From IMG/VR virus record IMGVR_UViG_3300025072_000029, positions 1-28,931 of that record: a stretch of 28,931 bases of DNA; one strand, 5' to 3'. Below, piece by piece: positions 5,247 through 28,931 of this stretch; position 1 is the first letter of the stretch, and each line of letters opens with the position of its first letter. A model generated the notes under the pieces. The model saw only the letters and a list, made by a program, of their open reading frames with translations, was not told where the DNA came from and did no database searches. The DNA is from a virus. The translations under genes were made by a program, and so were the position numbers.

Positions 5247-5903
5247 ATGACAATAGCCACACACATACTTGCGAAGCTCTTCCCAGATCCTAACAACAAG
5301 GAAACGTTTGTTAGCGATCTAACTAACGAGGTTGCCCTTGTAAATCAATCCCTTTGGGAGGTTGCCAATATGCTTCCTGTCAAAGATCTTATTAAGGTCG
5401 CTCAAGACCCAAGAGAAGGTGGAGATGCTGGTACTTCGATTGGTGTAGATGAAAAAGTTCTTCTTGTTTTAAGAGATGATATAGCATGCAAGGAGATAAG
5501 CGTTGAAGATGCTTTCAGAGCAAAGGATAGTGCTAGTATCCACTATGCAACTGCTCGTTCTCCTGTATTTTGGATTACAAAGCACCCAACAGAAGCTTAC
5601 CCTTTTGTTTATGGGTTCCCTACTGGATGGACAAAGTTGAATATATTTACCTACAGGAAGGAAACTCTTAGTGATCTCTCTGGAACTGCCTTTGCATATA
5701 TACCTCCTACAGCTTATGAGGCAGTATATTTAATGTCAGCTATGAAGATTATGCAGCAGAAGCTATCTTATATGGCTAATGATGAAGAAGATGCTGAATT
5801 ATATCAGATATTTCAGGGTAATTTACAGCAGATAGAATTAGCCTTAAAAGACTCAATGAAACTCCTTTCGCCTAGAGAAGGGCATCAGGAGAGAGAAAAA
5901 TGA
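5247..5903 (+). CDS. Unidentified neck/head-completion protein
   Basis: A 218-residue protein that I do not recognise. It is mixed alpha/beta with no signal peptide or membrane segment. The middle contains a Pro/Tyr/Phe-rich stretch (around residues 112-128) and the C-terminus (about 170-210) is acidic and helical. It sits directly after the capsid gene and overlaps the adaptor-like gene by 4 bases (ATGA), so a head-completion or head-tail connector role is inferred from position alone. The ATG lacks a good Shine-Dalgarno sequence: the nearest purine run is locked in the hairpin at 5214-5238, so translation may depend on that structure. A longer in-frame start is not available. Confidence 0.5.
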   Translation: MTIATHILAKLFPDPNNKETFVSDLTNEVALVNQSLWEVANMLPVKDLIKVAQDPREGGDAGTSIGVDEKVLLVLRDDIACKEISVEDAFRAKDSASIHYATARSPVFWITKHPTEAYPFVYGFPTGWTKLNIFTYRKETLSDLSGTAFAYIPPTAYEAVYLMSAMKIMQQKLSYMANDEEDAELYQIFQGNLQQIELALKDSMKLLSPREGHQEREK

Positions 5904-6592
5904 CACTTAAAGAATTATTAGAAGTAGTACAACTGCACCATCCTGGGCAAGGCGAAACAATGATTCGCCAGGGTTTAAATAGGGCACAAGATAATTTTAG
6001 TGCTAAGACAGGAATACTCAAGGCTACTGCAAATGACACAACAGTAGTTGCACAAAGAGGATATACTTTACACGATGAAATGCTTGAGTTATACAGAGTA
6101 GAACTTGATACCGAAATGATTCCAAAATTAATGGGTGGAGCTCTCTCTATCCCAATTGGAGATGTAGACGATGAGGCAGGGGTCGGTTCTTCAGCAACAC
6201 CAATAACAGCTAAGGCAAAGGCTGATAAGTATGCCTGGTATCTCGATTGCAAGACGCTATATATAGTAGAAAAGTGTTCTGCTACTGCAGACTACCTTTA
6301 TGAATGGCAGTCAGTTAGTACTGCTGGGATGACAATTAAGGTATATTATACCAGAAAGGCAGCTAAATATAGCTCTGGTGATTTAACTTTAGTATCAGAA
6401 CTTCCTTCGCAATTTCACGAGGCATTAGCTTTTAAAGTGATCTCTGACTTTTATAAGTTACCTGGTGAAACATTCAATTTGCAAGTTGCATCATATTTTG
6501 ATCAGGAGTTTGAGAAGGAAGTTAGAGAGGGTAAAAAATACGCTAAACGAGGCCATCAGAGAACTGGCTTCATTCAACCTTGGAGTTACTAA
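5900..6592 (+). CDS. Probable head-tail adaptor (connector) protein
   Basis: A 230-residue protein starting inside the stop of the previous gene, with GGAGAGAG just upstream. The N-terminus is a short helical part typical of phage adaptors (L-x-x-V/A-R-x-x-L-like). The middle has a Y-x-L-x-D-E-M-L-x-L-Y-R-V strand pair. The C-terminus has the pattern often seen in such adaptors: L-P-x-x-F-H-E-A-L-A-F-K-V near residue 170, then a helix ending in F-x-x-E-V-R-E-G-K-K. Adaptors of this kind form a ring under the portal that receives the tail. Order (portal, scaffold, capsid, this gene) agrees. The family name is not certain. Confidence 0.6.
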   Translation: MTLKELLEVVQLHHPGQGETMIRQGLNRAQDNFSAKTGILKATANDTTVVAQRGYTLHDEMLELYRVELDTEMIPKLMGGALSIPIGDVDDEAGVGSSATPITAKAKADKYAWYLDCKTLYIVEKCSATADYLYEWQSVSTAGMTIKVYYTRKAAKYSSGDLTLVSELPSQFHEALAFKVISDFYKLPGETFNLQVASYFDQEFEKEVREGKKYAKRGHQRTGFIQPWSY

Positions 6593-6970: not shown

Positions 6971-8425
6971 ATGGGCTGGAAAAGAATATTAACAACTTCC
7001 GATACCGAGTTCGTTGAAGATACAGTTGGAGCCATGTTCACTGGTAATACAGAAACTGGCATAACTGTCTCTTACGATGACAGTGCTAATGACATAAACT
7101 TAACGGTAGCGGATACAACGGTTGCAGGAGATACTGGTTCAACAGCAATGACTCCTGGCGATACTCTTACTATCGCTGGAGGCACTGGTGTCACGACTGC
7201 AATGAGTGGAGATACTCTAACTGTTACTGCGTCTACGCAATTGTCTACAGAGAATGTTGAGGATATAGTAGGTGGTATGTTAGATGGGACTGAGACTGGA
7301 ATTTCGGTTTCGTACGATGACGATGGTGGTGCTAATATAGACTTCGTTGTTTCTGATACAACCGTAGCTGGTGACAGCGGATCTACTGGTATGACACCAG
7401 GTGATACACTAACAATTGCTGGTGGTACCAATGTTACAACAGCTATGAGTGGGGATACCCTCACAATCACAGCGACTGATGCATCGGCAGCAACTACATT
7501 CCAAGTTGAAGATGACAGTGGAGATGAAGTTACTATTAGTCATGCAAAAGAATGGGCTATACTTGGAGGTACAGGTATTGGCACTAATTGGACAGATACA
7601 TCAACTGGAAGTGACGGCGACCCTTATGACTTGACTATTACTAATGATGGTGTAACTTCTAATGTAGCTGGATCAGGAATTAGTGTTAGTGGTGCAACAG
7701 GAGCGGTAACGGTTACAAATAGTGGTGTTACTTCTAATGTAGCTGGAACTGGTATATCAGTATCGGGAGCTACAGGTGCAGTGACAGTTACTAACTCAGG
7801 TGTTACCTCTGCCGTAGCAGGTAGTGGTATATCTGTATCTGGTGCGACAGGAGCTGTAACTGTAACTAATTCTGGAGTAACAGCTTTATCTGCTACTGCT
7901 AATGAAACAACAGTAAGTGGATCTACAGGTTCTATCAGTATAGGATTACCAGATGATGTAACAATTGGTGGTGTATTAACTGTTACTGGTAATTTAGTAG
8001 TAAATGGTACTACCACAACTGTGAGTTCGACAAACTTATCAGTAGAGGATGTATGTATCTCTCTTAATACAAACAGTGATGGAGATGACTGGGCAGGAAG
8101 TCTTTCTGCAGGTGACTCTGCCATATTGTTTGCTGGATTAAGTGCATCACCTGCTGTAGATGAGACCATAAAGTTGGTTTGTGATTTTGATGGTTTTCAA
8201 TTCGATACTGGTGATGCAAGAGCTTGCTTAGCGGTAACTCATGCAAATAGTACAACATTTGGTACTTCGAATTCTATTACTCAAGGTACTCTTGCTCATG
8301 TGAAAGCTGCAGCTTATGTCTATGATGACACTCAGGGTACTTTGATATATGACTCTGGTAATGGTGTCCCAACAGATGGAACAATAGTAGCAGCAGCCGA
8401 TGAGCTGTACATTTACTTTGCGTAA
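6971..8425 (+). CDS. Repetitive beta-rich tail fibre-like protein
   Basis: A 484-residue Thr/Ser/Gly/Val-rich protein with almost no Lys or Arg after the first 10 residues, and very few aromatics. It opens with the tag G-W-K-R-I-L-T-T-S shared with the gene at 8796. Two ~74-residue repeats follow (residues 15-88 and 96-169), then three tandem 25-residue repeats (226-300). Next comes a fibre-type block (about 330-365: G-G-V-L-T-V-T-G-N-L-V-V-N-G-T-T-T-T, then S-V-E-D) that is common in tail fibres. The C-terminal ~100 residues have a globular composition. A trimeric fibrous shaft is the natural reading, with the end as tip. The start has AAGGAG 8-9 bases upstream. A capsid-decoration role is possible. 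Confidence 0.7.
   Translation: MGWKRILTTSDTEFVEDTVGAMFTGNTETGITVSYDDSANDINLTVADTTVAGDTGSTAMTPGDTLTIAGGTGVTTAMSGDTLTVTASTQLSTENVEDIVGGMLDGTETGISVSYDDDGGANIDFVVSDTTVAGDSGSTGMTPGDTLTIAGGTNVTTAMSGDTLTITATDASAATTFQVEDDSGDEVTISHAKEWAILGGTGIGTNWTDTSTGSDGDPYDLTITNDGVTSNVAGSGISVSGATGAVTVTNSGVTSNVAGTGISVSGATGAVTVTNSGVTSAVAGSGISVSGATGAVTVTNSGVTALSATANETTVSGSTGSISIGLPDDVTIGGVLTVTGNLVVNGTTTTVSSTNLSVEDVCISLNTNSDGDDWAGSLSAGDSAILFAGLSASPAVDETIKLVCDFDGFQFDTGDARACLAVTHANSTTFGTSNSITQGTLAHVKAAAYVYDDTQGTLIYDSGNGVPTDGTIVAAADELYIYFA
7013..7477 (+). repeat. Two ~74-residue coding repeats in the fibre-like gene
   Basis: Residues 15-88 and 96-169 of the protein are clearly the same unit. Both contain T-E-T-G-I-(T/S)-V-S-Y-D-D, then D-T-T-V-A-G-D, then M-T-P-G-D-T-L-T-I-A-G-G-T and T-T-A-M-S-G-D-T-L-T. 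The offset is 81 residues. The likely origin is an internal duplication of a fibre shaft module. Confidence 0.85.
7646..7870 (+). repeat. Three tandem 25-residue (75-base) coding repeats
   Basis: Units are 7646-7720, 7721-7795 and 7796-7870. Each unit reads G-V-T-S-x-V-A-G-x-G-I-S-V-S-G-A-T-G-A-V-T-V-T-N. Adjacent units differ at only two of 25 residues, yet 14 of the 23 identical residues use a different codon. A partial fourth unit (S-G-V-T) follows. Confidence 0.92.
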
Positions 8426-9913: not shown

Positions 9914-10243
9914 GTGGATACTCCAGACTCAGACGGAATGTCAGTTTATGCTGATCTTGTCTGTGACCCTAATGCTGGAGATTTGCTTGATAACCTTGGC
10001 ATAATAGGAAATAAAACTTATCCCGATGGGGTCGATAACTGCGTTAATTGCGGTTACGAAAAGTTAGCGAATCTTGAGGTTCTTGGGGCACACAGTAAAC
10101 CTCTTTTTTATATATGTAGGAAGTGCAGTCATTTGCATTTACGGTACACAAGACCGTATACTATGAAGTGTATATTAAAAGCTGAGTCACTCTATTCAGA
10201 TCCAGAGTCTTGGGATATGCCAAAAAGAAAGGATTACGACTGA
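9914..10243 (+). CDS. Zinc-ribbon protein of unknown role (GTG start)
   Basis: A 109-residue protein with two Cys pairs, C43-x2-C46 and C68-x2-C71, spaced as in a zinc ribbon. The region between them is short and the C-terminal part is basic. GTG at 9914 follows the previous stop by two bases and is preferred to the ATG at 9938, which has no room for a ribosome site. Zinc ribbons commonly bind nucleic acid or act in protein contacts. Position between membrane proteins and a phosphoesterase does not settle its role. The stop overlaps the next start (TGATG). Confidence 0.6.
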   Translation: MDTPDSDGMSVYADLVCDPNAGDLLDNLGIIGNKTYPDGVDNCVNCGYEKLANLEVLGAHSKPLFYICRKCSHLHLRYTRPYTMKCILKAESLYSDPESWDMPKRKDYD

Positions 10244-11223
10244 TGGATAAAGCTGATTTAGAAGGCGATACCAGTCACGGTAAAAAAAATAGGATCTATG
10301 AAATAGTTGCACATTACCTTGTACATGGTGATAAAGCAGCTGATATACTTGGTATAAAAACACAGACTCTTAGAAGGTATCTACGGAGAGCTAAAGCTCT
10401 CGGATTAGATGTAGAGAGAGGTAAGGTACTAAGTGATATAGAAGCTAACTATTCAAAAACAGAACTTTTAGCAATATCAAAAGGTGCTAGAATATTACCT
10501 GGACAACCTCCTACACCAGTAGTAGAATTTAATGGAGAAAGAACTCGTATAGGAGTAATGGGTGATATACACTTTGGCAGTAAGTACTGTCTCTACCCAT
10601 TGGTCAATAAAGCATTCAAAGAGTTTGAGAAGGAAAATGTTGATATAGTGTGCCAAGTTGGAGACTTAACAGAGGGAATGTCAAATAGGCCAGGACAGAT
10701 CTATGAACTTTCCCATTTAGGCTTTCATGAGCAAAAGAAGGTAGCTATTAAATATATGAAGAGATGTCCAAGGCCTCTTTATATGATAGACGGAAATCAT
10801 GATAGGTGGTTCATAAAGTCTAACGGAGCTTTAATAGTGCCTGATGTCTGTGATGCTATTGACCATGCTACCTTTTTAGGGCATGATGAAGGTAATCTTG
10901 CTTTAGGTGACAATGCTACTGTTAGATTGTGGCACGGTGAAGACGGGTCCAGTTATGCAGTATCTTATAGGATCCAAAAAATAGTAGAATCATTAACAGG
11001 AGGTCAAAAGCCTAACGTGATGTTTTTGGGGCATGTGCATAAAAGTACGTACCTTTATGATAGGCATATACACTGTTATAGTGCAGGTGCCTTTCAAAGG
11101 CAGACAGCTTGGATGCGAGGTAAAAGACTCTCATCACATACTGGCTTTTGGATAGTAGACATTTATGTAAACGAAACAGGCGTTAGTAAAACAACAGGAA
11201 CATGGTACCCATTTTATGCTTGA
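10243..11223 (+). CDS. Metallophosphoesterase with N-terminal helix-turn-helix
   Basis: A 326-residue calcineurin-like phosphoesterase with all the usual metal-site motifs: G-D-I-H (D108, H110), G-D-x-x-E (D141), G-N-H-D (N185, H186), H231 in W-H-G-E-D, and G-H-V-H (H264, H266). These bind two metals and hydrolyse phosphomono- or diesters; a nuclease or phosphatase role is possible. Residues about 19-50 (A-A-D-I-L-G-I, then T-L-R-R-Y-L-R-R) form a resolvase-type helix-turn-helix, so it probably acts on or at DNA. The ATG at 10243 has AAGGA 9 bases upstream and is coupled to the previous stop; an earlier TTG (10210) is rejected. The exact substrate is unknown. Confidence 0.85.
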   Translation: MDKADLEGDTSHGKKNRIYEIVAHYLVHGDKAADILGIKTQTLRRYLRRAKALGLDVERGKVLSDIEANYSKTELLAISKGARILPGQPPTPVVEFNGERTRIGVMGDIHFGSKYCLYPLVNKAFKEFEKENVDIVCQVGDLTEGMSNRPGQIYELSHLGFHEQKKVAIKYMKRCPRPLYMIDGNHDRWFIKSNGALIVPDVCDAIDHATFLGHDEGNLALGDNATVRLWHGEDGSSYAVSYRIQKIVESLTGGQKPNVMFLGHVHKSTYLYDRHIHCYSAGAFQRQTAWMRGKRLSSHTGFWIVDIYVNETGVSKTTGTWYPFYA

Positions 11224-11476: not shown

Positions 11477-14400
11477 ATGCCACGTCAATTAGCTGAATTA
11501 AAACAGTTTGGTACTGGGATAAAGAGTTCTCCGTCCGATACGGATATTCATCCAGAATCTGCTATTTACAGTAAGAATATAGATCCTATATCTGAGGCTG
11601 GAAAGTTAAAAGGTATTAAGGAACACTTGAAAGTTCTTCCTCTGGATGGTAATTTAAACTTTATTATTATACCGCCTTGGGATGGCTCTGCTAATGATGG
11701 AGCTGGTAACTCATTTCCAAATGGTACCACAAACGCTGAGGAAGAACTCATTATATCTATAAATAATGTTACTGTCACTGAAAAGGCACTGTTTGATACA
11801 TCTGCTAGATTAACTAATACAAACTTTTGGACCAGCCTTGAAACTAAGCTTGAGACTGCCTTTGACGATTTAATTGGTGCTACTTTAGGTAGAGCTGCTA
11901 ATGATCTAAACAATACATATACTGATGTTGACCATTATAGTTCAGATGGTACTGCATATTCATCTTCAGATGACTCAGTTGCAATAACGGGCACTGATCT
12001 ACAACCATATAGACAGATTGGTCTTGAGTTCGAGTCAACAGTTGCTACTGTTGATATGTATGTTACCTGGAATAAATATGATGCGAATGGAGTGTCAAGT
12101 ACGTATACATATTATGTTTCAGATCCATACACCTCCAGTGGAGAACTTATTAACTCATCAGTTACCTGGAATGTTGTATTAGATGATACTTCATATCTTG
12201 AGATGAATGCTACAGAAATGGAGTCGTTTAATGATGAAGCAAAGAATCATATTGCTTTCTATAGCATAACTCCTAATGATTCTACCAGCAGTACTGGAAG
12301 TGCTACTACGTATAGAATGAAAGTATTTAATGATGTTTATGGCGTTAAAACCATAGAAGACAAATATACTGCAGACGATGGGGGCACAGATGTCTATTAC
12401 GACATACCAGGAACTCCAGCAGATGTAAGCTTAGAAAAGAACAATGCACAGATATATATTGGGACAGGGAATACTCTTCAAGCGAAAAGTAAGTGGTTTG
12501 GAAAGATAAAGCATAAGCAATTTGGTAATGCTATTGATGGGTATAGACTTACTGATTCAGAGACACTTCCTATTGATAAGGGAAGATCAGTATTTAACCT
12601 TGATCATATTGACTATGCATATGATGGAGAATATAATACGACTAATTACGAAAGAAACTGGGATCCAAGGATAACCTACGGAATATCCCCTGGGATGTTA
12701 AAGTTAGTACTTTTTTTAAGTGACGGTACAGAAGATAGTGCCTCCAATACAAACTTAGGTATGCAGAAGCAACCTACTTCTATGCTTACTTTTTCTCCGA
12801 ATATGATTTATGGATCACGTTGGCTTTGGGATGAGTTAAGCGTATTTACTGGAGCAGGAGACCCAGGAGCTGGAGATGCCTGGACTCCTTCTGGATCAGG
12901 TGATACGGCATTAGCTGCATGGACACATAATGGAGCTGGGCATACTTACTTTTGGGCAACAGATAAAAACGCTAATAAAATTCACGTACTAAGCAGTGAT
13001 GCCTCTGGTTTTCATCCTCATGATCCTAATCAATATGTTTACGACCATACTGTTCCAATATCGCTTACAGCAGATTTTGCAAATAGTTCTCAATCTCCAG
13101 TTGAGGGATCGAGACCAACTGATATTATAGAAACTTATGGAGACCAGGCTACAACTGGTAATACTATAGTCTATGTTCTCTTTACGCAAAAAAGTGATAC
13201 AGCGTATACCTTTGATGAGGAGTTTTTATACTATTTTAATCCTGAGTCAGATATATCTTGGAATTCTTTAACAGTTACCTTACACGAATGTACACCCCCT
13301 ACTCCTAAATTAACACACTATGGAACGTGGAGAACAGGGACTGGTGGATATTTTAATGAACATTTTTATCCTAATTTTGGCAAGAGAACTCACGACTATT
13401 GGGCTGGCACTTACAATGTTAAAAGTAACTACTTTTATTGGAGATATAATGATAAGGTAAATGAGCCAGCCACTGGAGCTCCAGAGGAGCCTGGTGGTGC
13501 TGCCAGTGGTGATACGGCACATGAAGGCGTAAAAGGTAATGAGTGGAAACATAGTCGAATGCATACCCAACCAGCTAATACAGCACAAATTGGTAAGAAT
13601 TTAGGTTGGGATGGAGCTGAGGACTATCTCATTACTCCAAGAAGAAGAGGTCTTATAGATTTAAATGATGGGCATAATTCAATAGGTCTTATAGCACATG
13701 TAAAAGGAAAGTTTGTTACTAATGGTGGTTATTTTGGTAGTACCCAATGGAGTAATTGGACACCTCGTTATAAGTATATTTGGGCGAATGGTCATACAAC
13801 TGAACAATATGACGATGTATGTATGTTCAATATTAACCCTAATCATGTAGGAGTTAGACATAGACAAATTGCTGAAGGATTTAAAAGAATCAATTTTTAT
13901 AACGATGGGGAATCTCATACAGCAAGTATAAATCAAAGTGATAACACTAATGGGAATCATAGTGACAGTTATAACGCTGCTTGTGATAGAGGCATTTGGA
14001 TGGCTGGTTTTGGATATAATAATGGATACAGCGAATATGATCACTATATCATTAAGTTTGACAGTGCTTCTGCCTCTACTGGATTTGATGGTTCAAATGA
14101 GATAAATCAAATGCCAGATGAAGTAGCTGGTATAGCTTCTATGAGCAGAAGGATTTTAGATGTAGTCAATAGTGGGACTTCAGTCGCTCAGGGAGCACAT
14201 AAGTTTTGGGCTGTTCTCCAGGGGGATGATGGGACAGAAACAGTACTTGGTAGTTGGAATATGAATTTTCCTACTGGTACAAATGTTAATGCTGGAGAAG
14301 GTCGAGGGAACTGGACAGTAACAACTGAGGGATGGACTCCTATGATATTCAAAACACTTGGAACTCCAGCTATGGCTGTCGCTACACCGCATAACAGTGA

Positions 14401-23422: not shown

Positions 23423-24136
23423 ATGGGCATAGCGGACTGGTTCGGGGCACCTAAGAAAATAGACCCTGCGAAGATCCAGGGAATGATGACCTCGGAATAT
23501 ACTACTCAGATGGGTGATCGTGCTCAGCAAATGGCGGATCCTAATTCTCAACTGATGCAAGGTATGTATCAGAATATGCAGAAACAAGGTGCAGATCAGT
23601 TATATGCCCAAAATAGAATGGCTCGAGCTGGTGCAATGCGTCAGAACATGGGTGGACAGAGTGGTATATTAGAAGCTCAACGACAACAGCGTGTAGGTGC
23701 ACAGGGTAATCAGAATGTTCAGAACTTTTCTAATATGCAACAGGGAAACCTAAATGCATCTAATCAGCTATTAAGTGGGGCAGCTACAAATGATATGACA
23801 GCTCGTAGTGCTGCTGCCTCTGCTTATGGTCAGAATATAACGAATGAGAATAATTATAACTCTGCTATGGGTGGAATGGTTACTCAGTTAGCTGGTGGTG
23901 CTATGATGGCAATGTGTGACCCTCGTACTAAAACAGGTATGAGAAAAGTTGGGATTATAAAGACTTCTAAGAAGCCTATAAATCTCTACTCTTTTAGTTA
24001 TAAAGGTTCTGGAGGTAAAAGATCAGTAGGGCTTAGCTCGACTAATGTTAAACAACAGTTTAAATCTTTTGTTCAGAAGGATAAAAAGGGACTTGAATGG
24101 ATTAACATGACCAGATTAAAGGACGTATTAAGATAA
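23423..24136 (+). CDS. Internal virion/ejection-like protein with degenerate S74-type C-terminal domain
   Basis: A 237-residue protein. Residues about 20-160 are Gln/Met/Asn/Ala-rich and helical, like DNA-ejection proteins. From residue 164 the sequence reads M-C-D-P-R-T-K, then V-G (about 176-177), then P-I-N-L-Y-S-F-S-Y-K (185-194), then S-V-G-L near 201, and a final segment with G-L-E-W-I-N-M-T-R-L. This follows the order of the intramolecular chaperone (peptidase S74) domain: S-D-x-R-x-K, then Y-x-F-x-Y, then G-V-x-A-Q, then an aromatic-N/D-x-x-x-L end. The catalytic Ser position is Cys165, with Lys170 kept. It is shorter than typical S74 domains. AAAGG lies about 11 bases before the ATG. 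Confidence 0.65.
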   Translation: MGIADWFGAPKKIDPAKIQGMMTSEYTTQMGDRAQQMADPNSQLMQGMYQNMQKQGADQLYAQNRMARAGAMRQNMGGQSGILEAQRQQRVGAQGNQNVQNFSNMQQGNLNASNQLLSGAATNDMTARSAAASAYGQNITNENNYNSAMGGMVTQLAGGAMMAMCDPRTKTGMRKVGIIKTSKKPINLYSFSYKGSGGKRSVGLSSTNVKQQFKSFVQKDKKGLEWINMTRLKDVLR

Positions 24137-24906
24137 TGGCTGGTGAAAATTTTATTAGTGCAGAAGCCTTAGAAGCTTTTAAACAAAGCGGGTTATATGA
24201 TCCTGCTGGTGCAGGTGCTTTAACTCAAATGATGAATGCTATGAACGCTGGTAAGGTTGATAGTAAAGGAATGACAGTTACTCCTGAAGCTAATACGGGT
24301 GCAACAGAAGAAGAGGGTGGTAATGACTTTAAAAAAGTTATACAAAAAGACCCTAAAACTGGACTACCTACAGGGGTTGCAGCCACACGGGAAGTAGGGG
24401 ATGATCATAATCAGACTTTTACTGTAGATGAGATTAATGATGCAAAAGTAACGTCAAGCTTAAGTGGTCAGAACATTAAGCCAAATGATTTAGCAGCTTC
24501 AGCTAATCAGGGTTCAAATATAAGTACAACTGATAACTCACAAGCTGTTGATCTAAAAGGACAACAAGCTGTTAATGACTCCAAAGAAGAAATGGAGAAA
24601 CTTCCTAAACCTCCTCAGACTTTATTTGGAATGGCTTCTAAAACTCTTGATAAGAGTGGTTTTACTGAAGGAGCTGACAAATTTGGAGATATGGCTGGAG
24701 GCTGGGGGATGGAAGGTTTAGGTAAAATGGGCATGGATGCTGGTGTTGGAGGTAACCTTGCTGGTGCTGGACAAGCAGCGGCTGGATTTGGTGGAAAGAT
24801 GCTTGGAATGGCTGGTAGTGCACTAAGCCCAATTATGGCAGGTATGGGTACTGCAATGCATGGAATAGGCAGAGGTATGATGGGCATACAAATGCCAAGG
24901 TATTAA
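24136..24906 (+). CDS. Gly/Met-rich ejection-type protein
   Basis: A 256-residue protein. The N-terminal half is acidic and disordered (Asn/Asp/Thr/Ser). From about residue 180 to the end it is dominated by Gly, Met and Ala with small-residue spacing (G-x-G-x-x-x-G-like, for example G-M-E-G-L-G-K-M-G-M), like a glycine-zipper helix that could insert into a membrane. No enzymatic motif. Coupled to the previous gene by TAATG, with AAAGGA 12 bases upstream. In this cassette it may form part of the channel for DNA entry; that is inference from composition and neighbours. Confidence 0.55.
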   Translation: MAGENFISAEALEAFKQSGLYDPAGAGALTQMMNAMNAGKVDSKGMTVTPEANTGATEEEGGNDFKKVIQKDPKTGLPTGVAATREVGDDHNQTFTVDEINDAKVTSSLSGQNIKPNDLAASANQGSNISTTDNSQAVDLKGQQAVNDSKEEMEKLPKPPQTLFGMASKTLDKSGFTEGADKFGDMAGGWGMEGLGKMGMDAGVGGNLAGAGQAAAGFGGKMLGMAGSALSPIMAGMGTAMHGIGRGMMGIQMPRY

Positions 24907-24907
24907 A

Positions 24908-25504
24908 ATGAACCCCTTTATGGAAGCATTTAGAAATAGATTATACGGTGGAATACTAAAAGGACACTATACAAAGAGAAAAGATGCTATTAGAGATGCA
25001 GGAGCAGCAAACGAATTGAAGAATCAAGAACACTATGATGTGAATAGTGAATTTGAAGAGAGAACAACTGATAAATCACGTAAGAAAAATACTATTCCGC
25101 CTGAATATAGTTATCCTGATGCTTATCAAAATGTTTATGGTATACATACTTTACCAATTAATGTTACTGGAAGTTCAGAAAATCCACAAGATTTTTCAAA
25201 TGTAAAGAGAGGAAGTAATGCAGCAGGTGGCAATATTGTAGATGCTTATGTCACAAATAACGGTACAAACAGTAATTATACGCGTACCGAAACTCCAACT
25301 GAATATGGTCCATATGTACATAGTCAATTAGAGCTAGAAGATGGAGATCCTCAAATGTACCAAAAATATCCAGAAGGGTTTGGAGGTTTCCCTGCACATG
25401 AGGGGTCTTATACTGAAAAAATAGGGCCTTTTGGATTTGGTTATCAAACCGCACAAGCTCCTAAAGACAGGAGTTTAATGTCTTTGATAAGAGAAAGATT
25501 TTAA
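24908..25504 (+). CDS. Unidentified virion-cassette protein
   Basis: A 198-residue protein. The first ~60 residues are basic and helical; the rest is Asn/Gly/Tyr/Pro-rich and probably disordered or beta. No known motif or membrane segment is seen. It starts two bases after the previous stop. Its position inside the ejection-type cassette suggests a virion protein. The only nearby untranslated sequence is the 28-base gap downstream. Confidence 0.6.
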   Translation: MNPFMEAFRNRLYGGILKGHYTKRKDAIRDAGAANELKNQEHYDVNSEFEERTTDKSRKKNTIPPEYSYPDAYQNVYGIHTLPINVTGSSENPQDFSNVKRGSNAAGGNIVDAYVTNNGTNSNYTRTETPTEYGPYVHSQLELEDGDPQMYQKYPEGFGGFPAHEGSYTEKIGPFGFGYQTAQAPKDRSLMSLIRERF

Positions 25505-25532: not shown

Positions 25533-26141
25533 ATGGCAGTTATGGATAAGTTACAACAAGCAGGAATGGTTCAGCAGATAGATCCTCAAGATGCGAGAGG
25601 TACTGGTGGCGGGTCAGCTGGACGTCGTGGAGGTATGAGAGGTTACGTACCAGATTGGTTACAAAATGCAGTTGCTGGTGGAGCTGATGCGTTAGGTTTT
25701 GATGATATGGCGGATTATATTCGTCCAGGCGGTGGTGGTAGACAAACACACGGCACTGGCTCAGGATTAAATCCAATGGCCTTTTCACAACCAGATTGGA
25801 TGATTCAGTCAGCGAATTTCAATCCAGCCGATAAAGATCAGGTTTTAAAAGCACAGCAGATGTTAAATCGCTTAGGCTATAAAGATGATGCTGGTGAACA
25901 GTTGCAAGAAGATGCACAGATGGGCCGTAAGACAGAATCGGCGTATCGCCAGTGGGTTAATGATACCAGGGCTACAGCAGGTGACGACACCTATAAATAT
26001 GACTATAACGAAGGGAATCCACGTAAAGGTTTTCTTGGAAGAGCATATCAGAATATTGATAAGAGACTTGGTGGTTGGTTACCTGGTGGTTACAAAAGGG
26101 ATCAGGCTGAGATGACAAGAGACGAATATAAAAACAGATAA
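25533..26141 (+). CDS. Virion protein with peptidoglycan-binding-like domain
   Basis: A 202-residue protein. The N-terminal ~90 residues are Gly/Arg-rich, with a short D-W-L-Q-N-A-V segment. Residues about 96-146 resemble a peptidoglycan-binding type 1 domain: D-K-D-Q-V-L-K-A-Q-Q-M-L-N-R-L-G-Y, an acidic loop, then G-R-K-T-E-S-A-Y-R-Q-W. The usual order is a first helix ending L-x-x-L-G-Y, then D-G-x-F-G-x-x-T-x-x-A-V-x-x-F-Q. Here the loop is E-D-A-Q-M-G-R-K-T. Such domains anchor proteins to cell wall. In an ejection cassette this would target the wall during DNA entry. No lytic domain is visible. AAAGGAG is about 6 bases before the ATG. Confidence 0.65.
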   Translation: MAVMDKLQQAGMVQQIDPQDARGTGGGSAGRRGGMRGYVPDWLQNAVAGGADALGFDDMADYIRPGGGGRQTHGTGSGLNPMAFSQPDWMIQSANFNPADKDQVLKAQQMLNRLGYKDDAGEQLQEDAQMGRKTESAYRQWVNDTRATAGDDTYKYDYNEGNPRKGFLGRAYQNIDKRLGGWLPGGYKRDQAEMTRDEYKNR

Positions 26142-27157
26142 TGGCAACTGATTTCGGGACATACGAGGGGCACAGAATTCTTTCTGATGCCGCTACGAAG
26201 CTTGCTGATAGGGTTCAGAGTGGATTCCAGTTCAAGGAGCAAATGCAACAGGATGAGAAGAAGCGAAAGGACCAGGCTAAAAGATGGGATCATCAAAACC
26301 TAGTTTCTGATGCTCAGGCAAGGAATATCCATAGTACTGCAAATAGGAGGGACCTATTAGCCCCTACTGAGTTATCAGAGATGCGGGCTGGGATAGACTC
26401 AACACGAGCTGGGACTGATCAAACACGGCATATAACAGATAAAAGTGAGCATAACTTTTTACGTCAGCAGATTAATGAAAACAAAGCTGATCTAACTGAA
26501 GATATTAGGAGACAATACTATGATGAAATGTCCACAAAGCTTAAAGACTTTGATCTCTATGATGAAGAAGCTGGTGAGATGCGTGGTGAAGCCATTCCGA
26601 TGTTACTTCAAGCGATAGAAAACACCTATCCAAAGGATATAATGGAACTTGATCCTGAAGGTAAACTTGATCTTCAGCAAATCAATGACATAGGAGGTGA
26701 CATCCATAAGCTTTACACTAACGAAGTGATGAGCAGGATGGTAAATGAGTTAAGCAAAGCTGGACTTGATAAATCTCAGATAGATCAATTAGTAGGTGAA
26801 AATCCCGAATTACAAGGTGCTTTAGATTCATTTTATCGAGAAGGAATGGGAGTTAACCCAGGTGACGATTCTTCTGGTCTTAATCCAATAGAAAAAGGCC
26901 TTTATGGCGACAATAGTGCAGCTGGACAATTAGGACGAGTTGAGAATGCTATAACTAATCTTCCAGACAAGTTTGATAATGTTGCGATAAGTCAAGATCC
27001 TGTTAGTGGAGTTGTTACTCTTGAGGAATCTGACCCTTTTAGTAATGATGAATATACTGTTAATTTCGATGGGAATAGGCCGTATATAATAGAGGATAAT
27101 AAGAAAGTATATCTTGATGACCATGATGGGCTATATGAAGCCTTTGAAGGCTGGTAA
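26141..27157 (+). CDS. Helical internal virion-type protein
   Basis: A 338-residue protein, strongly helical and Gln/Lys/Asp-rich over residues 1-150 (coiled-coil-like, H-R-I-L-S-D-A-A-T-K-L-A then K-E-Q-M-Q-Q-D-E-K-K), becoming acidic with an Asp/Tyr-rich C-terminus. No membrane helix, signal peptide or catalytic motif. Linked by TAATG to the peptidoglycan-binding-like gene. I infer an ejection or head-interior protein from context; sequence alone does not identify it. Confidence 0.6.
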   Translation: MATDFGTYEGHRILSDAATKLADRVQSGFQFKEQMQQDEKKRKDQAKRWDHQNLVSDAQARNIHSTANRRDLLAPTELSEMRAGIDSTRAGTDQTRHITDKSEHNFLRQQINENKADLTEDIRRQYYDEMSTKLKDFDLYDEEAGEMRGEAIPMLLQAIENTYPKDIMELDPEGKLDLQQINDIGGDIHKLYTNEVMSRMVNELSKAGLDKSQIDQLVGENPELQGALDSFYREGMGVNPGDDSSGLNPIEKGLYGDNSAAGQLGRVENAITNLPDKFDNVAISQDPVSGVVTLEESDPFSNDEYTVNFDGNRPYIIEDNKKVYLDDHDGLYEAFEGW

Positions 27158-27173
27158 AGAATAGGAAACTAAT

Positions 27174-28484
27174 ATGAATTATGACTTTTATAACACAGGT
27201 ACAGGAGCTCCTACAACAGAAACTACTGAAGAGAGGATGACCAAGAATGAGCGTAAGCGTGTTTTAGGTTATATACGTGCCTATGCAAAGAATCCTGATA
27301 ATCCAAGATGGTCTCCTCAGATGGTAATGAAGATTCAGCAGATGGCTGATACTTATGATATACCTTGGTCTCCACAAAAACCTGATCCAGGGTTTTTTAA
27401 GAAAGGTGCTGCTGCAATAGGTGGTGTTGTAGATGCCGCGTTATTAGATTTTATTCCAGACAAGGCATATACTGCTGCTGGTGCTGAAGGGTATGCAGAA
27501 GCTGGTAAATTAGCAAGTCTACCAATCCAGGTAGCTGCTGCTATATTGTCTGGTGGGACAAGTGCTGCTGTAACTGGTGCGAGTTGGGCTGCAACAAAGA
27601 AACTTGGTGCTGGAGCTTTAGCTCGTAAGGCTACAGGTTTAACCCTTGGTGGTGGGATTGCAAGAGCTGCAAAGCCTGCAATTGCTCCTTTGGCTGCAAG
27701 ATTCGGTTTAGGTCAGGGTGCTATAAAGAAATCTGCTGATCAGATTGTTAGGCAAGCAAGATCTCAAGGTGGTCAAATGAATTTATTCGGTGCTGCGGAT
27801 GACGTTGCTGAGCAAGTTGTAAAAGGCCAGACTAAAATGGGATCAAGGTTTAGTGAATATGTTCAAGAAGGCGTTAAGGGAGTTGCCAGAAAAGGTAAAA
27901 AAGCTGCTATCCAAGAATTACAAACACTTAGAGGTGGGGCAGATAACGCCAGAGTAGTAGAACTATTGAAGACTGGTCATTTTTCTCCGAGGGAAATAAG
28001 GGGTATAGCCTCTAGTATAATTGGAAAAGGTGGAACTAAAGCTGGTAGAAAAGCTGCTACAGATGCACTCTTAGAGCAAGTTCTCCCTGGTGGTGTTGGT
28101 GGAAAGCTAACTGGTTCTGTAATAAATAAACTCGCTAAAGCTCCTAAGAAGATTTTAGATGATCTTGCTAAAGGTGGTGGTCTCAATACTAAAAAGAAGG
28201 TAAAAGCTTGGGTTGATTCCACATTAAAAGGGACTTCAAGGCTTGATAAGGATGCTATAATAAAAGAAATTGTTGAAAGTGAAGCTAAAACAGTGAAAGA
28301 TTTACTTAAAATAGGGGCAAGAATGAGCGGTAAAGCTAAAACAGCTGCTTCTGTTGCACCAGATTTTGCAGGAGCCTTACCATCTACTCTTGGACTTGGT
28401 GCTCTTAGCACGATGGGTATGCAAGGTCAGGACCCAGATATAGATCCTTTAAGACCGTACTACTCCGCTACGACAGGGCAGTAG
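27174..28484 (+). CDS. Ala/Gly-rich basic ejection-type protein
   Basis: A 436-residue protein. An N-terminal helical unit (about 45-68: S-P-Q-M-V-M-K-I-Q-Q-M-A then Y-D-I-P-W) is followed by G-F-F-K-K-G-A-A-A-I-G-G (74-85) and a hydrophobic Ala-rich stretch (about 105-175). The remainder is Lys/Ala/Gly-rich and helical with no signal peptide. The mix of hydrophobic and basic helices fits a protein that passes through membranes with DNA. The same layout occurs at the start of the next gene. It ends 8 bases before the next start. Confidence 0.6.
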   Translation: MNYDFYNTGTGAPTTETTEERMTKNERKRVLGYIRAYAKNPDNPRWSPQMVMKIQQMADTYDIPWSPQKPDPGFFKKGAAAIGGVVDAALLDFIPDKAYTAAGAEGYAEAGKLASLPIQVAAAILSGGTSAAVTGASWAATKKLGAGALARKATGLTLGGGIARAAKPAIAPLAARFGLGQGAIKKSADQIVRQARSQGGQMNLFGAADDVAEQVVKGQTKMGSRFSEYVQEGVKGVARKGKKAAIQELQTLRGGADNARVVELLKTGHFSPREIRGIASSIIGKGGTKAGRKAATDALLEQVLPGGVGGKLTGSVINKLAKAPKKILDDLAKGGGLNTKKKVKAWVDSTLKGTSRLDKDAIIKEIVESEAKTVKDLLKIGARMSGKAKTAASVAPDFAGALPSTLGLGALSTMGMQGQDPDIDPLRPYYSATTGQ

Positions 28485-28492
28485 GAGCTTAA

Positions 28493-28931
28493 ATGCTCTC
28501 TCCCTATGACAAGTTAGATAGGGTTTTAGAATTTAGACCCAGGTATAGTCAGGGTCAGACCCAAAGGCTTGTAAAAAGTATAAGTCAGAATCCTCACTTA
28601 TACACTGAAAACACACTGAGCTCGATTAAAGATCATGCGGCTCATTTTAAAATCCCCTTTGAAGTTCCAGAAAAGGTCTCTATAGACCCAAAAGAGAATG
28701 AATTTCAATTATTACGTGGTTTAGGGGAGGTAGGAGAAGGATTCCTATCAGGATTTTCCACGTTTGAGGTAGGCGAACCCTCAGAAAACGAATACGAAAG
28801 AATACTAAGGAGCGTTGGCCATCTTGCTGGTTTTGTTGGCTATGTTCCTGGTATGCCTTTTACTGCTGCTGGTAAACTTATTGCTGCGGCATCTAAAGGA
28901 TCTAAAGGGCTGAATGCTGCAGAAAGAGTTT
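28493..28931 (+). CDS. Start of a probable large internal virion protein (3' end outside window)
   Basis: The frame is open from ATG 28493 to the window end (146 codons), with AGGAG 5 bases upstream. The N-terminus has a helical unit ending in F-K-I-P-F (about 52-56), then a Gly-rich hydrophobic segment L-L-R-G-L-G-E-V-G-E-G-F-L-S-G-F (about 73-88) and L-A-G-F-V-G-Y-V-P-G (about 111-120). This layout resembles the N-terminus of the preceding gene product. The gene is probably much longer; large internal virion proteins often end such cassettes. No enzyme motif is visible in the part seen. Confidence 0.6.
   Translation, partial: MLSPYDKLDRVLEFRPRYSQGQTQRLVKSISQNPHLYTENTLSSIKDHAAHFKIPFEVPEKVSIDPKENEFQLLRGLGEVGEGFLSGFSTFEVGEPSENEYERILRSVGHLAGFVGYVPGMPFTAAGKLIAAASKGSKGLNAAERV

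Follow-up and report, generated by a model that had tools for sequence, protein, structure and literature searches.

What would a peptidoglycan-binding domain that carries no enzyme be doing among genes whose products a phage probably injects together with its DNA? The question is raised by a 202-aa protein encoded at 25533..26141 (+) of the window, meaning the whole virus record of 28,931 bases analyzed here, which is classed as linear and is perhaps a fragment. The window contains the end of a terminase-like ORF, a P22-type portal, SU10-type coat and adaptor proteins (Pfam SU10_MCP, 92.8 bits; SU10_adaptor, 27.4 bits against a cut-off of 27), two very long ORFs of 1501 and 2025 aa, and smaller genes that run from 23423 to its end. 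These smaller genes lie on a single strand (+), are overlapping or closely spaced, and encode, in order, an ejection-type protein of 237 aa (23423..24136; phrog_4287 "DNA ejection protein", E 7e-10), cassette proteins of 256 aa (24136..24906; no family match) and 198 aa (24908..25504; no significant family match), the 202-aa protein, whose stop codon overlaps the start of the following gene (TAATG), further cassette proteins of 338 aa (26141..27157; no significant family match) and 436 aa (27174..28484; Ala/Gly-rich), and the first 146 aa of a giant protein (28493..28930) that is cut by the record end. The gene for the 202-aa protein is thus located in an ejection-type cassette, and its product is probably among the proteins injected with the DNA. 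Homologues of the 237-aa protein (e.g., L095:10422-11120) seem to end in a Peptidase_S74-like region, of the sort usually seen on tail fibers; one ORF of relative G005, read from its sequence as such a homologue, matches Peptidase_S74 at E 2e-10.

The original prediction placed a peptidoglycan-binding-like domain (PGBD) at residues of about 96-146 of the 202-aa protein. These residues correspond exactly to 25818..25970 (+), and both of the patterns behind the proposal are present, namely L111-N-R-L114-G-Y116 and T134-E-S-A137-Y-R-Q-W141. The expected resemblance to PF01471 was borne out over residues 102-137 (E 0.0027), but at 18.3 bits it stays under the curated cut-off of 23. The absence of a fused lytic domain also holds, since Pfam at thresholds up to E 10 gives just PF01471 and PF08823 (E 0.18); PF09374 is not reported within that limit. 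For the same stretch, PHROGs returns two endolysin families at E 0.014 and 0.036, and none at E 0.01. A local PGBD HMM, trained on 11 segments, of which seven came from relatives and four from endolysins and none from the window, scores the window protein at 31.2 bits, whereas no shuffle among 5,000 exceeds 13.7, and detects it at E 8e-9 among 1,021 ORFs; in Roseobacter phage CRP-810, the same model picks a protein annotated as GH108 (E 3.9e-5), which was outside the training set. When the profile of seven lineage domains (window included) was compared with that of the four endolysin PGBDs, hhalign returned 98.2% (E 5.4e-14), a figure that is flattered because these endolysins came from a scan with this family's own profile and so are a biased sample. 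In a sequence search of the PDB, the family comes closest to an endolysin (E 0.0024), followed by a protein named secretion activator (E 0.0043).

Related proteins lie on both sides of the Pfam thresholds. The PF01471 cut-off of 23 is exceeded in G026 (24.2 bits), L148 (30.1 bits), and L181 (27.8 bits), while the scores in G003 (16.0 and 19.4 bits, two proteins), G005 (14.2 bits), and L142 (20.7 bits) fall below it, and G007 reaches 21.8 bits as a protein and 23.6 bits in a six-frame search. Against PF09374 (cut-off 24.6), G003 scores 25.0 bits, with G005 (14.2) and G007 (17.9) below. The six-frame search with PF01471 gave matches in 6 of 40 records at E 0.1, two of them above the cut-off; the match in G040 has 11.5 bits. 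Between G003 and G004, 39 of 42 residues of the PGBD part are kept, and dN/dS, calculated from small counts, is 0.28 for the gene as a whole, with 0.18 in the domain and 0.23 and 0.54 in the parts that precede and follow it, respectively. In sequence terms, residues 96-146 are thus confirmed as a divergent peptidoglycan-binding-like domain.

Structure prediction backs the PGBD fold only weakly. In an AlphaFold2 model of the PGBD protein based on eight sequences, residues 92-154 have pLDDT values above 50, with 50 residues at 70-90, and nearly all of the rest fall below 50. The model neither contradicts the three-helix fold that had been anticipated nor displays it clearly: two helices form in the domain (101-113 and 132-149), together with a three-residue one at 93-95. 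The best Foldseek match has E 1.4. When Foldseek's matches were aligned with VIA, Sen1395 (Z 4.6) and TtsA (Z 3.0), each over 53 residues at 2.8 Å, came out ahead of Cre recombinase (Z 2.3), all of these values being in the range (Z below 8) that can mean a mere common arrangement. A viral fold library yielded one notable match, an uncharacterized 84-aa podovirus protein (probability 0.90, E 0.33).

Relatives were reached via the portal (70 loci), the 1501-aa protein (5 loci), and profile A2. Contig L009 is 99.98% identical to the window across 12,692 bases and represents the window species. Short exact patterns of the PGBD, 237-aa, and 436-aa proteins retrieved no relative from viral contigs, and a phage collection search gave no match to these proteins or to the 1501-aa protein. 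A genome-collection scan returned a single locus (L210), on contig QCPL01000010.1, titled Prochlorococcus sp. AG-436-M02, which we take to be a single-cell genome. The ORFs of this contig and of G042 (L116) are identical, a hint that the G042 branch has a cyanobacterial host (Prochlorococcus), and from the same match the uncultured phage lineage is probably marine. Its coats are distantly similar to those of the cultured phages Mel-JY34 and CRP-810, in which the PGBD HMM has one match in total, the GH108 protein of CRP-810 noted above. Elsewhere in the window, a protein encoded amid the structural genes (10210-11223) matches the calcineurin-like phosphoesterase family PF00149 (40.3 bits) and has weak helix-turn-helix matches close to its N-terminal end, and a 484-aa protein (6971-8425) contains internal repeats such as G-D-T-L-T-I-A-G-G-T and T-N-S-G-V-T-S-x-V-A-G.

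The position of the PGBD gene recurs in relatives. In G003, G004, G005, and G007, the gene for the ejection-type protein is followed by one small variable gene, the PGBD gene, genes for proteins of 328-436 aa and 400-433 aa, and the giant gene; G041 has the same plan, with proteins of 316 and 402 aa. Counterparts of the window's 338-aa protein adjoin the PGBD gene downstream, and those of its 436-aa protein adjoin the giant gene upstream. In the window, the PGBD gene is preceded by two small genes (256 and 198 aa) instead of one. Homologues share a conserved C-terminal stretch, which in the window protein covers residues 166-187 (26028..26093, +) and ends in D-K-R-L-G-G-W-L-P-G-G-Y. The proteins that carry a PGBD near the giant vary, those of 200-260 aa being one kind. 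A second PGBD occurs in a small protein of 130-141 aa in G003 (the 19.4-bit match, below the cut-off), G004, and G041, where it was seen in the sequence and had been a row of the HMM training set. The domain lies near the end of a 270-aa protein adjoining the giant in G026 (L100:9168-9980) and at the end of a 424-aa protein, likewise adjoining the giant, in L148. By eye, three copies of the LPGG stretch (I-D-x-x-x-G-G-x-L-P-G-G) precede the PGBD of G026, and a 336-aa protein (L183:3761-4771) has one copy and no PGBD hit. In G042 (L116:6789-8013), the PGBD gene is located between two ORFs that resemble, by eye, halves of the adaptor, which is a single ORF in the window (5900-6592). Two ORFs of G005, probably L097:12696-12965 and 12965-13351, match SU10_adaptor.

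Only a minority of relatives carry a PGBD near the cassette. A scan with the giant core gave 142 relatives, the best 80 of which were kept, corresponding to 77 loci. Among the 48 of these loci that have more than 3.5 kb ahead of the giant ORF, nine include a PGBD ORF (eight of the 37 clusters formed at 90% identity), and in two of the nine (L181 and L182) it precedes a fiber-like gene outside the cassette. Since the PGBD HMM had been trained partly on members of the scanned loci, the cases newly found are L141, L142, L148, and L181/L182; L181 scores weakly with the local HMM (16.3 bits), yet exceeds the cut-off in Pfam. PF01471 has no match in G034 (which ends before the giant), G030, or G027, and no PGBD was seen by eye in their cassettes.

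A transglycosylase encoded further downstream had been suggested as a possible partner, and Pfam recognized no lytic domain in the downstream genes of the relatives examined. Pfam likewise identified no wall hydrolase in 9 + 6 window proteins (a set that leaves out the 2025-aa ORF), or among 43 chosen G005 ORFs at E 0.01. Across the cassettes, Pfam listed no transglycosylase, lysozyme, amidase, or wall peptidase at E 0.01 in 173 of the 188 non-redundant ORFs of 75-1000 aa (the other 15 being long and mostly fiber-like). The Pfam families with more than one member in a cassette set were PG_binding_1 (4 and 3 members in the two sets), Peptidase_S74 (3 and 3), PG_binding_3 (3 and 1), and Gp53-like_C (0 and 2). 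No wall hydrolase was found by Pfam in 19 giants, two of which were scanned at E 1, one within the G005 scan, and 16 at E 0.05, with the G003 giant cut by its contig end; LysM, another wall-binding domain, appeared in one giant at E 0.22, far under the cut-off. As a positive control, the gp20 transglycosylase of phage SU10 (SLT) is detected by Pfam at E 1.1e-23. Pfam misses the small endolysin of the lineage at E 0.1, and its silence therefore leaves room for a hydrolase. Matches to YkyA, a "putative cell-wall binding lipoprotein", and to a colicin pore domain were seen in one cassette ORF each (E 1.4e-4 and 2.3e-4, respectively).

Downstream of these genes a giant protein is encoded, of which the window retains a fragment that aligns over 136 aa with the beginning of the L145 giant, at 54% identity. 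Giants of the lineage measure approximately 2,900-3,500 aa where complete (e.g., L126:1319-10657, L107:697-11097, and L110 from 13210). The motif D-x-D-G-D is found in giants at 76 of the 77 loci drawn from the best 80 of 142 relatives; the remaining locus, L149, is cut before the motif, and L138, from the opposite end of that record, contains it. A model of the G041 giant core (921 residues, 37 sequences, mean pLDDT 88.3) resembles the virion RNA polymerase of crAss phage phi14:2 (Foldseek E 1.2e-7; VIA Z 12.1 over 646 residues), QDE-1 (VIA Z 18.1 over 504 residues), and the P23-45 polymerase gp96 (VIA Z 10.2). A PDB sequence search with the giants returned nothing relevant, tblastn of the core region against phage records gave no match at E 0.001, and Mel-JY34 and CRP-810 have neither D-x-D-G-D in ORFs longer than 400 aa nor a match to the polymerase HMM. 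The lineage giants are thus predicted, from the modeled fold, to have a two-barrel RNA polymerase core. Because the window ends after the first 146 aa of its giant, the core of that protein lies beyond view, and for the window species a two-barrel polymerase is predicted from the similarity of those first 146 residues.

What the sequences themselves show is the domain, the gene setting in which it lies, the fact that it recurs in relatives, and the lack of a Pfam-detectable hydrolase in the cassettes examined. The reading that we prefer, tentatively and with slightly less than even confidence, is that the PGBD protein is ejected and serves as a docking subunit in a conduit across the envelope; its virion location, ejection, and wall binding are what we infer. 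The protein would be packaged inside the virion of a short-tailed phage and ejected together with the giant polymerase and the rest of the cassette proteins. Its single PGBD would then dock the forming conduit on peptidoglycan, positioning or steadying it during the passage of polymerase and DNA, while the disordered flanks and the C-terminal LPGG stretch might contact other conduit proteins. Several observations count against docking: the domain occurs in nine of 48 loci only, L181/L182 and G042 place it elsewhere, the window copy has lost part of its signature, the fold evidence is weak, and a hidden hydrolase may have diverged too far for Pfam to recognize. A bolder form of the docking reading, which we consider rather improbable, is that a non-catalytic peptidoglycan dock, accompanied by a giant two-barrel RNA polymerase that is ejected as well, replaces the wall-cutting enzyme of the ejection machine; such a conduit would grip the existing wall mesh, or pass through it, while the polymerase draws the DNA in.

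The same domain might instead persist as a virion protein-protein or assembly module whose peptidoglycan binding has been lost, an explanation that we take seriously although it is unlikely. Of the signature D-G-x-F-G-P-x-T, the window copy keeps D127, G131, and T134 and lacks 3 of the 6 residues, and L142 has also lost part of it; together with the absence of the module from most clusters, this leaves room for an assembly role without wall binding. The weak fold matches point the same way, as do the shifts in the place of the PGBD proteins, above all in G042, where the gene lies between the apparent adaptor halves. However, D-G-x-F-G-P-x-T is conserved in the seven remaining proteins of alignment A5, and several relatives exceed the Pfam PGBD cut-offs, both of which are more easily reconciled with retained binding. 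The L142 protein (MLNRLGF...) has the same longer loop as the window copy (MLNRLGY...), so that the loop appears to be a family variant rather than an assembly fault.

A role in trans with a hydrolase, either the small endolysin or a divergent virion hydrolase, would make the PGBD protein the targeting subunit, in effect the binding half of a split lysin at entry. This is also unlikely, though a candidate partner exists: the window species encodes a 135-aa endolysin (L009:547-954; E 3e-73 to the G005 protein) in which the local HMM finds no PGBD, and its homologues match the endolysin family phrog_465 at E 3e-42 (G005) and 5e-39 (G042). From its sequence, we read this small endolysin as a putative M15-type peptidase; PF13539 gives 11.4 bits in G042, against a cut-off of 25, and nothing in G041 or G043. 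The notion of a cofactor for a lytic protein encoded downstream is partly supported in that a separate small endolysin exists, but its gene precedes the terminase-like gene, at a long distance from the cassette. Moreover, the endolysin family was not found in G041, and no hydrolase was recognized in the 173 cassette ORFs or the 19 giants, both of which argue against a division of binding and cutting between two proteins.

That the protein is a lysis-stage accessory merely located in a structural operon is very improbable: its best sequence matches are indeed endolysin PGBDs, but neither Pfam nor PHROGs assigns the neighboring cassette proteins to a lysis family, and the position between ejection-type genes recurs in relatives. 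Chance resemblance, which the window score below the Pfam cut-off might suggest, is hardly credible in view of the shuffle control, the window-free HMM, the profile comparison, and the relatives above the cut-off.

If the docking reading is true, a stand-alone wall-binding subunit would mean that finding the wall and cutting it are separable, which could be tested with one small protein, and would hint that some phages may grip the bacterial wall while threading DNA through it. The same operon encodes the giant predicted two-barrel RNA polymerase, a region to which the phage records searched contain no close match. Taken singly, PGBDs and ejection cassettes are well known; what is unusual is an enzyme-free PGBD at this place, in several forms, in a lineage without a recognized enzyme there. 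A literature search combining PGBDs with ejection or virion terms gave no such report among the titles and abstract openings of the matches listed, and the term peptidoglycan-binding is absent from the available text of a review of ejection proteins (PMC8954989).

Among known domains, PF01471 and PF09374 share with this family a helix, a loop with D-x-x-x-G-x-x-T, and a second helix, and relatives score above the cut-off in both; in contrast, there is no catalytic domain here, and the window copy scores below the cut-off and has a longer loop. The GH108 muramidases TtsA (PDB 6v40) and Sen1395 (6v3z) are the top structural second-look matches of the ordered segment. In TtsA, a discrete C-terminal domain is described as recognizing edited peptidoglycan (PMC6996933), and from their residue numbers the matched residues are inferred to lie in that domain, although both enzymes differ from the PGBD protein in having a catalytic domain of their own.

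Entry of short-tailed phages into Gram-negative bacteria is often described with an ejected wall-cutting activity, as for T7 (PMC8954989) and SU10 (PMC9509320), although, according to a review of ejection proteins, the T7 domain is missing from P22-like phages (PMC8954989). Escherichia phage SU10 resembles the present lineage in its related coat and adaptor families and in a series of ejection genes of which the last is the largest. Its gp20-24 are reported as five ejection proteins, of which gp20 is a transglycosylase (PMC9509320); the SU10 ejection operon thus contains the type of enzyme for which Pfam recognized no counterpart in the cassettes examined here. In bases 1-45000 of the 77,327 of SU10, no ORF matches the PGBD or polymerase HMM. 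The polymerase of phage N4 is a T7-like enzyme. A giant polymerase is described in the ejection operon of the Schitoviridae (N4 and DEV; PMC10925440), as is predicted here, whereas the predicted fold in the present lineage is of the two-barrel type found in crAss phi14:2 and in gp96 of P23-45 (PMC10770324).
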